A stretch of 64,000 nucleotides of DNA from Actinomycetota bacterium (lineage in GTDB: Bacteria; Actinomycetota; Acidimicrobiia; Acidimicrobiales; Iamiaceae): the NCBI GenBank assembly GCA_016185275.1, contig JACPNX010000024.1, positions 1 to 64,000 of the forward strand. The letters run 5' to 3'. Shown here one piece after another: positions 46,678-52,846 of the stretch. How positions within the stretch are numbered: the stretch's first letter is position 1; each line of letters begins with the position of its first letter. The position numbers and the translations under genes were made by a program. Below the pieces are notes generated by a model. The model saw only the letters and a program-made list of their open reading frames with translations, ran no database searches and was not told where the DNA came from.

Positions 46678-47663
46678 CGGCTCTCCCCCACGGCCGCCTC
46701 CATGACGTCGTCGGCCGTGAGGACCTTGTCGCTGCCCGCGCCGAGCAGCAGGTACAGCACGGCCATGCGGACGGCCACCCCGTTGCGGACCTGGTCGATG
46801 ATGGCCGACCGGGGGAGGTCGGCGACCTCCGGGGCGATCTCGACGCCCCGGTTCATCGGACCCGGGTGCATCACGAGCGCGTCGTCGCGCAGGCGGGCGG
46901 CGCGCCGCACGGTGAGCCCGTAGCGGGCGGTGTACTCGCGCAGCGACGGCACGAGCGCCTCGGTCATGCGCTCCTGCTGGATGCGCAGGAGGTAGATCAC
47001 GTCGGCGTCCGGGGCCACCGCGTCGAGGTCATGGCTCACGGATACGGGCCAGCCCTCGAGCGTGGGGGGCAGCAACGTCGGCGGGGCGACGAGCGTGACG
47101 TCGGCGCCCAGGGCCGTGAAGGCGGCGATGTCCGAGCGGGCGACCCGCGAGTGCTTCACGTCGCCGACGATGAGGACGCGGCGGCCGGCGAGGCTGCCCA
47201 GCCGCTCGCGGATCGTGTAGCAGTCGAGCAGGGCCTGGGTGGGGTGTTCGTGCCAGCCGTCGCCCGCGTTCACCACCGCGGCGTCCACCCAGGACGCGAC
47301 CCGGTGCGGCGCTCCCGACGACCGGTGGCGCACGACGATGCAGTCGACGCCCATCGCCTCGATGGTCAGCGCCGTGTCGCGCAACGATTCGCCCTTGCGC
47401 ACCGACGACGTGCTGACGCTGAACGACATCGTGTCGGCCGACAACCGCTTGGCGGCCGTCTCGAACGACAGGCGCGTCCGCGTGGAGTCCTCGAAGAACA
47501 GCGATGCCACCGTCTTGCCCCGCAGTGCCGGGACCTTCGGGATCGAGCGCCGGCTCACCTCGACGAAGGCATCTGTCAGCCGCATGACCTCGTCGATCCC
47601 GTCGGCGCCGAGATCGTCGATCGACAGCAGGTGGCGGACGGGGCGGGCCGGCGCACCGGTCAC
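46674..47663 (-). CDS. pyrB: Aspartate carbamoyltransferase catalytic subunit
   Basis: 329 residues. Carbamoyl-phosphate site [23 protein letters not shown] and [13 protein letters not shown] are complete. No pyrI is present. In several actinobacteria pyrB and pyrC form a complex; their overlap here supports co-production only. GTG overlaps the pyrR stop (GTGA). Confidence 0.97.
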
Positions 47664-48226
47664 TTGACCACCTCGCCCAGATCGACGCCTTCGGCGTGCA
47701 CGTCGACCGCTTCGTCGCGGCGGGTCGGCAGGTTCTTGCCCACGTAGTCGGGCCGGATCGGCAGCTCGCGGTGGCCTCGGTCGACCATCACCGCGAGCTG
47801 CACGGCCCGCGGCCGCCCGTAGTCGTTCATGGCGTTGAGCGCGGCCCGGATCGTGCGCCCCGTGAACAGGACGTCGTCGACGAGCAGGACGACCCGGCCG
47901 TCGAGCTCGAAGCCGATGTCGGTCACGGCCTCGGGCAGGACCGGCCGCAGGCCGATGTCGTCGCGGTAGAAGGCGACGTCGAGCGACCCGCGCGGGACCT
48001 CGATCCCCTCGATGGCCCGCAACGTCTCCGCCAGGCGCTCGGCGATGGGCACGCCGCCGGTCTGGAGCCCGATCATGACCACGTTGCCGAGGCCGTGGTT
48101 GCGCTCGACCACCTCGTGGGCCATCCGCCACGTCGCCCGCTGGAGATCGTCGCGATCCATGATCCGCTTGCGGGCAACGAAAACGCCCCCGTACGGGGGC
48201 GTGATCCTGCGCTCTCGTTCGGCCAA
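47660..48226 (-). CDS. pyrR: Pyrimidine operon regulator / uracil phosphoribosyltransferase PyrR
   Basis: 188 residues from TTG at 48226. PRPP loop [19 protein letters not shown] and [20 protein letters not shown] are diagnostic. PyrR binds pyr mRNA when UMP is high. TTG is chosen because AGGAGG lies 6 nt upstream (48233-48238), and that site is in the base of the PyrR-binding hairpin. If used, the first about 20 codons cross a terminator-like palindrome encoding TPPYGG. The ATG at 48160 ([11 protein letters not shown]) would give a protein slightly short at the N-terminus and has no comparable ribosome-binding site. Confidence 0.92.
48176..48202 (-). terminator. Terminator-like hairpin at the start of pyrR
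   Basis: A perfect 20-bp palindrome (48183-48202; ACGCCCCCGT / ACGGGGGCGT) is followed on the minus strand by TTTTCGTT (48176-48183). This is the form of an intrinsic terminator, yet it lies inside the frame opened by TTG 48226. It may stop transcription when pyrR is not translated. Confidence 0.55.
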
Positions 48227-48229
48227 GCC

Positions 48230-48283
48230 GTGCCTCCTGTCCGTTCGGGCCTCGCGGGACCCGCTTCACGGTCAGGAAGGCAC
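48230..48283 (-). promoter_or_regulatory. PyrR-binding RNA hairpin that occludes the pyrR ribosome-binding site
   Basis: On the minus strand GTGCCTTCCTG (48273-48283) pairs with CAGGAGGCAC (48230-48239), ten pairs with one bulged U. A CCGT/ACGG stem, a purine-rich bulge and a CGGG/CCCG stem follow. The terminal loop TCCCGCGAGG (48250-48259) fits the PyrR consensus UCCNGNGAGG exactly. The AGGAGG ribosome-binding site is in the lower stem. Confidence 0.75.
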
Positions 48284-48970
48284 CGTACCACCTCGCGGCC
48301 CGGGGCCCGAGGGAGCCGGCCGGGCCCCACCTCCCGGCGTCTTTGGTTCTTTGGCAGCGCATGGCGGGGCCAAAGAACCAAAGACGGTGGATGCGGCCAC
48401 GGACCGGACCCAGAGGTTGCGCCCGTCGGGCAGGCGGCCCACCTTCGAGAGCCCGACCCGGGTCGCCACCGCGGCCGAGGCGACGTTGCCGGGCTGGATC
48501 CGGGCGACGACCTGCGCCGCACCCGCTCCGCGCCCCGCAGATCCGAGCGCCCATCCGACCATCAGGCACACGGCCGCCGATGCCACCCCACGGCCTCGAT
48601 GCTCGACGCGCACCCACCAGCCGGCCTCGAGGACCGGCTGGGTCAGCGCCGGCGAGCCGGCCGCAGCCGTCCGCGGCCGCAGCGGCCGCAGCGGCCGGAG
48701 GCCGACCTCGCCCCACACGTCGTCGGCCTCGAAGGCCGGAGCGATCACCAGGTCGAGCGCCGCTCCGGACTCGACCCGAGCCGACCACCCGCCGATCCAG
48801 CGCGCCGCCGCTGCGTCGCTGCGATCTGCCGGCACCGACACGCCCGCGGCGATCTCGGGCTCGGCCCACGCGGCGGCGAGCGCGGCGGTGTCGGCCGGTC
48901 GCCAGGGCCGCAGCACGATCCCGGCCGCGGCGTCGACCAGCGGCGGATCCGGTGGGCCGAGTCCGCTCAC
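48272..48970 (-). CDS. GNAT family N-acetyltransferase
   Basis: 232 residues as read. The RimJ-like GNAT core (about 10-185) has [20 protein letters not shown] and the acetyl-CoA loop [11 protein letters not shown], then [20 protein letters not shown]. The conserved fold ends near [10 protein letters not shown]. The following 40 residues ([14 protein letters not shown] and a Pro/Gly tail) are translated from a 45-bp palindrome and from the pyrR leader, so the original stop may have been lost when the element arrived. GTG at 48970; a second copy of the palindrome lies 21 bp before it. Substrate unknown. Confidence 0.78.
48340..48384. repeat. 45-bp palindromic element, copy 1
   Basis: Perfect 16-bp arms TCTTTGGTTCTTTGGC (48340-48355) and GCCAAAGAACCAAAGA (48369-48384) around a 13-nt loop. 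It lies in the 3' end of the GNAT reading frame. The arms are identical to those of copy 2 and are markedly AT-rich for this chromosome. Confidence 0.9.
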
Positions 48971-48990
48971 CGGCCCCCACCCACCAGCCT

Positions 48991-49035
48991 TCTTTGGTTC
49001 TTTGGCAACGCCCGGCGTTGCCAAAGAACCAAAGA
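48991..49035. repeat. 45-bp palindromic element, copy 2
   Basis: Same 16-bp arms as copy 1, extended to 21 bp (48991-49011 and 49015-49035) with a 3-nt loop CCG. It sits between the GNAT start and the nusB stop and could also end the efp-nusB transcript. Confidence 0.9.
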
Positions 49036-49055: not shown

Positions 49056-49475
49056 TCACGGGCCGTCCGGGCCCCGCAGCTCGTCGGCGATCCGGGCCAG
49101 CATGCCGTTCACGAATGCGCCCGAGCCGTCGGTCGAGTACCGCTTGGCCAGCTCGACGGCCTCGTTGATGACCACGTTGCGGGGCACGTCGGGCCTGTGG
49201 CCCAGCTCGTAGGTGGCCAGGCGCAACACGGCGCGGTCGAGCGCCGGCATGCGCTCGACGTCCCAGCCGCGGGCGAACCGGCCCAGCGTGGCGTCGATGC
49301 CGGCACGCTGCTGGTCGGCTCCGGTGGCCACCGCCACGGCGTAGCCGTCGGGCGGGACGGGCAGCGCGGCGATCACGTCGGCCACCGGCTGGTCCTTGAT
49401 CTCGGCCTCGTAGAGGAGGTGCATGGCCCGCTCGCGAGCCTCGCGACGGGTGGCGCCGGGCTGGCCGCTAGGCAC
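49056..49475 (-). CDS. nusB: Transcription antitermination factor NusB
   Basis: 139 residues, all helical. REARERAMHLLYEAEIKDQP, WDVERMPALDRAVLRLATYE and NVVINEAVELAKRYSTDGSG are typical; NusB binds boxA with NusE for rRNA antitermination. GTG at 49475 overlaps the efp stop by 8 nt. Confidence 0.95.
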   Translation of the reverse strand: MPSGQPGATRREARERAMHLLYEAEIKDQPVADVIAALPVPPDGYAVAVATGADQQRAGIDATLGRFARGWDVERMPALDRAVLRLATYELGHRPDVPRNVVINEAVELAKRYSTDGSGAFVNGMLARIADELRGPDGP

Positions 49476-52710: not shown

Positions 52711-52752
52711 TTTCCGACAGATCCGGCCAACCCTTGGCCGGAACCGTCGGGA
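52711..52752. terminator. Bidirectional hairpin between ccdA and the M24 peptidase gene
   Basis: Inner stem CCGGCCAA / TTGGCCGG (52723-52730, 52734-52741; loop CCC) inside an outer stem TTTCCGAC / GTCGGGAAA. It lies in the 179-bp gap between convergent genes, with short T/A runs at both ends. Confidence 0.65.
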
Positions 52753-52846
52753 AAGCCACATCACGGGGACGGGCGGGGCGCGGGGCGGGACACGGGCGCC
52801 GGGACGGGCGCGGGGCGCGAGGTGCGGCCGGCCGCGGCCGCCGCGC

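Follow-up and report, generated by a model that had tools for sequence, protein, structure and literature searches.

Two 45-bp palindromes frame a GNAT acetyltransferase gene in a 64,000-nucleotide stretch (the window) that opens contig JACPNX010000024.1 of an Actinomycetota bacterium of the family Iamiaceae (assembly GCA_016185275.1). We conclude that these palindromes are probably non-autonomous copies of a family resembling the repetitive extragenic palindromes (REP), with a master unit elsewhere in the genome, on contig C42 (16084-17156), made of an AbiEi/DUF559 nuclease gene between two palindromes. Nuclease genes of this kind are associated with palindromes in several actinobacterial lineages, and we infer from this association that the enzyme cleaves and mobilises its palindrome. 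A broader proposal, to which we give slightly less than an even chance, is that they form a new class of mobile elements, in which an AbiEi-DUF559 nuclease, acting as a dimer, would recognise both arms of a palindrome specific to its lineage and scatter solo copies of it to the ends of genes throughout Actinomycetota, with several such systems coexisting in one genome.

The features of the two palindromes given by the initial annotation were recovered: TCTTTGGTTCTTTGGC and its exact complement occupy 48340-48355 and 48369-48384 in copy 1 and 48991-49006 and 49020-49035 in copy 2, both palindromes measure 45 bp in total, and their arms are AT-rich (7/16 G+C) in a genome of 73% G+C, as measured on part of it. 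Within the window TCTTTGGTTCTTTGGC or its complement was found four times with up to three mismatches, against 0.06 occurrences expected by chance. Copy 2 is a perfect palindrome (22+1+22) located 21 bp from the nusB stop and 21 bp from the GNAT start, while copy 1 has 18-bp arms around 13 bp and is read through by the GNAT frame, giving a 16-residue tail. The same annotation envisaged the GNAT gene as possible cargo. GNAT homologues with 35-53% identity occupy 16 loci between nusB and pyrR in relatives of the same family; 11 of these loci include the whole nusB-GNAT-pyrR stretch and none of the 11 carries a palindrome there. The conservation of this gene order without palindromes indicates that GNAT is resident and that both palindromes were gained in this lineage, and it rules out the cargo hypothesis.

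The palindromes belong to a family (F1) that is not limited to these two copies: as the initial annotation supposed, it is a multi-copy family of gene ends. The genome, 3.44 Mb in 50 contigs, carries exactly 22 of them. When a covariance model trained on these copies was run over the whole genome, all 22 scored E<1e-10, the next match had E=0.25, and no decayed relics appeared. All copies are 45 bp long and in register, with the half-site TCTTTGGnTCTTTGnC and free loops; in most of them the 45-bp unit is preceded by a further T and followed by an A (TTC..GAA). The consensus of the 44 half-sites is T-TCTTTGG-[T/C/G]-TCTTTG-[G/T/A]-C, in which 10 of the 14 fixed arm positions vary little or not at all. 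Next to the dyad, the five inner positions deviate from the majority base in 78 of 220 cases (about 35%), far above the fixed arm positions. Pairing at variable position 32/62 is kept in 19 of the 22 copies, mostly by a change on both sides, and position 39/55 is mismatched in 7 of 22. Either strand is predicted to fold into a strong hairpin (about -23 to -52 kcal/mol), and an Rfam scan of F1 returned only chance microRNA hairpins, far under threshold. No half-site occurred outside palindromes in 1.51 Mb, even with up to two mismatches, so that pairs of DNA uptake sequences were rejected as an explanation. The left flank of F1 is C-rich and the right flank G-rich, beyond what is seen at other gene ends. 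Six of the 22 copies (for example L047, L053, L054, L060 and L063) have flanks that are complementary, as best of 22, and lie within a longer C-rich/G-rich inverted repeat, as if inserted at the tip of a stem already present; the overall test was not significant (p=0.06), and insertion of F1 into pre-existing terminator stems was rejected on this basis. The positions flanking F1 carry little information, and no GTAG-type head precedes the palindrome. We found no target-site duplication common to the 22 alignments and no near empty site giving exact junctions. A phage or plasmid origin was discarded, as F1 had no match in viral contigs, phages or plasmids. No palindrome with exact F1 arms was detected in other species among GTDB contigs, and none was convincing in 395 genomes of the class; only looser relatives were seen, in four genomes (G005, G024, G027 and G043).

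Genes were called by ourselves, both in this genome (G000) and in G027, which belongs to another family of the order; the sites of F1 copies were judged against calls made on 1.51 Mb by means of a simple codon model. A stop codon is no more than 50 bp away from 14 of the 18 intergenic F1 copies, versus 38% expected (p=8e-4), and seven of the 18 are between convergent genes, versus 13% expected (p=0.005). These sites adjoin single-copy core genes and not cassette arrays, a point considered against integron attC sites. Other copies are in frame within coding sequences. Two form read-through tails, in a helix-turn-helix protein and in the GNAT of the window; two are internal, one with perfect arms in the linker of a 1002-aa MFS/ABC fusion and one between the two domains of prmC. 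The prmC copy (L055, contig C23:99612-99664) adds 15 codons before the methyltransferase motif of an otherwise conserved enzyme. The interdomain linker of this PrmC is 21-31 residues longer than in most alignments with relatives, 15 of these residues being the palindrome; three alignments differ by 1, 1 and 15 residues. The same gap was seen against a named Acidimicrobiales genome. Both prmC and GNAT thus contain F1 copies where relatives have none, which points to insertion.

The initial annotation had suggested looking for a linked RAYT-like (REP-associated tyrosine) transposase. An enzyme gene is indeed linked to F1, but it is of another kind: Y1 transposases (PF01797) were absent from all nine genomes searched, this one and eight relatives, in which positive controls were detected, and RAYT or any other Y1 transposase was dismissed as the linked enzyme. 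On contig C42 the two most similar F1 copies bracket an intact gene coding for 305 residues, in which a DUF559/REase_MTES_1575 nuclease domain is fused to an AbiEi-like DNA-binding domain. Likewise, in G027 two same-family palindrome pairs (C and D) bracket two genes with an AbiEi_4 helix-turn-helix and DUF559. Exactly four AbiEi_4+DUF559 genes were present in 1.9 Mb of G000 and G027: the C42 gene, these two of G027 and one on contig C9 of G000. DUF559 genes number four in the present genome and up to eight in a relative. Besides the C42 gene, the gene on C9 has a second palindrome family, F2, on both sides, and the gene on C32 has a copy of a third, F3, about 90 bp beyond its 3' end.

Bracketing was then used as a prediction. 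Additional DUF559 genes were gathered, before their flanks were inspected, by a protein search of plasmid records that included chromosome pieces; the flanks of the DUF559 genes of G003 and G016, members of the same family as G000, fall outside the count. Eight of 12 genes, the C9 gene included, were bracketed: C9, four in Tsukamurella (#1, with a 41-bp pair, #2, with an abutting 64-bp pair, L257 and L258) and three in Arthrobacter (L260, L261 and L262). With the three seen first, 11 of 15 DUF559 genes, found by homology and so not a random sample, are enclosed by a pair of palindromes or repeats belonging to a family of their own, and they span Acidimicrobiia, Mycobacteriales and Micrococcales. 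AbiEi antitoxin genes without DUF559 showed no such flanking pair. As a blind control, we took 250 bp on either side of every gene between 500 and 1600 bp long and determined the longest word common to both flanks. A shared word of at least 15 bases was found for 8 of the 15 DUF559 genes versus 3 of 1216 control genes (Fisher 8e-15). By this measure DUF559 genes ranked second and third of 839 in this genome, and first and second (tied) of 157 in the Tsukamurella record. The strongest other case in the control scan was a gene at contig C48:96641-97351, with a 32-bp direct repeat common to both flanks. Each bracketed nuclease gene has its own palindrome sequence: F1, F2, C and D of G027, and seven in Tsukamurella and Arthrobacter. 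The Tsukamurella genes also include an unbracketed AbiEi-DUF559 subfamily (L252:6170-7135, L263 and L264), which is possibly domesticated or an earlier state.

DUF559 (PF04480) is annotated as a protein of unknown function, and no link to palindromes appears in the titles and abstracts of the open-access literature naming it. The aligned AbiEi-DUF559 proteins, 12 in number, share invariant S, E, D, D, H and D residues, which correspond to the EDxHD pattern, and in 11 of them the N-terminal part matches AbiEi models. Compared with the PDB, their profile matched 3hrl (5e-13), 3r3p, a 'Mobile intron protein' that we take to be the homing endonuclease I-Bth0305I (3e-5), and weakly Vsr (about 1). 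Judged from these profiles, the AbiEi-DUF559 protein is a nuclease of the EDxHD/Vsr fold.

Dispersal of a cognate palindrome is not particular to F1. The palindrome of Tsukamurella #2 was found at 20 places, spread over eight replicon records of that strain, and was absent from every other organism among the plasmid records; all five dispersed sites inspected are just past a stop codon and four of the five are between convergent genes. The palindrome of Arthrobacter L261 recurs at 13 places of the replicon to which L261 belongs, and other records lacked it. The behaviour of F1 thus recurs with different sequences in another class. A blind census of this genome also revealed three further repeated palindromes of fixed length, F2 (49 bp), F3 (43 bp) and F4 (50 bp), whose copies are for the most part close to the end of a gene; F3 has about 14 sites and F4 about 10, spread over the genome. 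G027 has at least five such families (38-51 bp, L116-L135), one of them F1-like; apart from C and D with their cognate DUF559 genes, its palindromes (for example TTCTGGGTACTCGTGTGTGTTCTG) have no DUF559 partner in the DNA examined.

Most likely, the nuclease recognises its own palindrome and its activity spreads the copies. We propose that it would bind the palindrome as a dimer, each arm contacted by one DNA-binding domain and the EDxHD active site placed above the variable centre, so that the arms would remain fixed while the loops drift. A length of 41-66 bp, arms that stay fixed and a centre that tolerates changes would fit the footprint expected of a dimer of such a two-domain protein. 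Such a dimer would also agree with the family of I-Bth0305I, which dimerises on a target of nearly 60 bp (PMC3943268). Cutting followed by repair or replication, by a double-strand or hairpin route, could seed new palindrome copies, and those landing at nearly harmless places would persist: immediately downstream of a stop codon, or within a linker lengthened by 15 codons (45 bp). Once in place, a copy may serve, through the strong hairpin that it forms on either strand, as a 3'-end or attenuation element working in both directions. The REP- or MITE-like (miniature inverted-repeat transposable element) family imagined in the initial annotation thus stands for its REP-like side, by its copy number, its gene-end sites, the empty sites in relatives and the linked enzyme gene, but not for a GNAT cargo or a RAYT.

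Several observations weigh against this proposal. No target-site duplication was recognised. The F1 loops are as divergent as in old copies although the arms are intact, implying fast turnover or selection on the arms. F4 has no neighbouring nuclease gene in the DNA examined, the C11 DUF559 gene is near neither F3 nor F4, and the F2 bracket of the C9 gene consists of one damaged and one half copy. Finally, 4 of the 15 DUF559 genes, Nonomuraea L259 and three of one Tsukamurella subfamily, have no bracketing pair.

The palindromes could instead spread by other means, the DUF559 genes homing into them as a safe landing site and the bracket being the duplicated target. In favour of this, the nuclease domain resembles a homing endonuclease most closely, about 20 F1 palindromes stand alone against a single nuclease unit, and no nuclease gene neighbours F4 in the DNA examined. 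However, the palindrome sequence differs from one nuclease gene to the next, the surroundings of the copies yielded no other mobilising gene, and Y1 transposases are absent; we regard this scenario as unlikely. We give less credit to dedicated bidirectional terminators or 3'-end hairpins maintained by selection, the identity of the copies being incidental or due to gene conversion and the nuclease link secondary. Copies past stop codons and between convergent genes, the pairing kept at position 32/62 and a C-rich 5' flank on both strands are what such elements would show. But F1 has no U-tract or T-run on either side and was not called by a terminator scan, copy 2 is squeezed into the tight nusB-GNAT junction, perfect arms occur within the MFS/ABC reading frame, and relatives lack palindromes at the same places. 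For these reasons termination fails as the main reason for F1, and the dedicated terminator family put forward in the initial annotation appears weak. This explanation also leaves the bracketing of nuclease genes unaccounted for. As a by-product, the hairpins may nonetheless terminate transcription in both directions or protect 3' ends.

Slightly less probable again is that the palindromes are operators or recognition sites of the AbiEi-DUF559 protein, as a regulon or as self-protection marks, without being moved by it. The arms do resemble a strict dimeric binding site with free positions, and a palindrome lies upstream of those plasmid AbiEi antitoxin genes that lack DUF559, as expected of an operator. 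Yet the copies are at 3' ends and not at promoters, a palindrome lies downstream as well as upstream of the nuclease gene, and the prmC and GNAT copies, empty in relatives, indicate insertion. Quasi-palindrome correction, in which template switching keeps the arms matched and makes compensatory changes such as those at 32/62 uninformative on function, is very improbable as an explanation of the family, since it acts within one copy, cannot keep 22 unlinked copies identical and leaves 39/55 mismatched. It would yield the same covariation, which for this reason we set aside as proof of RNA function. Dispersal by the nuclease is our preferred explanation. The features concerned are listed in Table 1.

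Table 1. Position of the palindromes, neighbouring genes and candidate master unit (window coordinates unless a contig is given)
Feature	Position	Strand	Remarks
F1 palindrome copy 1	48340..48384	.	TCTTTGGTTCTTTGGC-13-GCCAAAGAACCAAAGA, in read-through 3' extension of the GNAT frame
F1 palindrome copy 2	48991..49035	.	between nusB stop and GNAT start
GNAT acetyltransferase (PF13302) frame	48272..48970	-	resident; final ~38 codons from copy 1 and beyond
nusB	49056..49475	-	upstream neighbour
pyrR	47660..48160	-	downstream neighbour; used in synteny/empty-site test
F3 copy	52711..52753	.	TTTCCGACnGATCCGGCCAA-3-; same kind of element as F1
Candidate master unit, palindrome–AbiEi/DUF559 gene–palindrome	contig C42:16082-17158 (L060:2999-4075)		

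Close to these features, at the start of pyrR (48183-48202), the window contains a conserved ACGCCCCCGTACGGGGGCGT hairpin shared by relatives, which is probably part of the pyrR leader control.

If the link between nuclease and palindrome holds, uncharacterised DUF559 genes gain a job and a testable substrate, each nuclease–palindrome pair being in effect a natural specificity experiment. It would also mean that the REP/RAYT mode of existence, one enzyme accompanied by many solo palindromes, evolved anew around an enzyme of unrelated type. Repeated gene-end hairpins of high-G+C genomes, which may pass for terminators, would be accounted for as well, and so would stretches of 15 residues inserted in frame into conserved proteins. 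No earlier description of such a system was found in the part of the open-access literature that we consulted. Repeated hairpins of the same general class, stem-loop sequence families, were surveyed in 40 genomes (PMC2267715), and the parts of that survey consulted contain no enzyme link of this kind.

One of the closest known parallels is the REP/RAYT (TnpA-REP) system or 'REPtron' (PMC2817692, PMC8266576), where palindromes also occupy gene ends and the enzyme gene is bracketed by two copies. As in REP/RAYT, F1 palindromes are scattered at gene ends with the enzyme gene between two copies, enzyme and palindrome sequence go together, and paired changes keep palindromicity. Here, however, the enzyme is an AbiEi-DUF559 nuclease of the EDxHD/Vsr fold and not a Y1/HUH transposase, there is no GTAG head, and the palindromes are 41-66 bp long with a tolerant centre, present in tens of copies with few clusters, in Actinomycetota. 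Palindromic repeats inserted in frame inside protein genes are reportedly found in Rickettsia (Claverie and Ogata, cited in PMC2267715). F1 resembles them by its in-frame copies in prmC and the MFS/ABC fusion and by its extensions of gene tails, but it is 45 bp long, resides mostly at gene ends of a 73% G+C genome and is paired with a nuclease gene. With I-Bth0305I, the AbiEi-DUF559 protein shares the nuclease superfamily by profile and the invariant E, D, D, H and D, and its palindromes approach in length the long dimer-bound target of that enzyme, a dimer being presumed here. I-Bth0305I comes from a phage mobile intron, whereas the AbiEi-DUF559 gene is free-standing, has an AbiEi-type N-terminal domain and lies between two palindromes, with solo palindromes elsewhere in the genome. 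The AbiEi-DUF559/palindrome system is best read as REP/RAYT-like, with a Vsr-fold nuclease in place of the HUH transposase.
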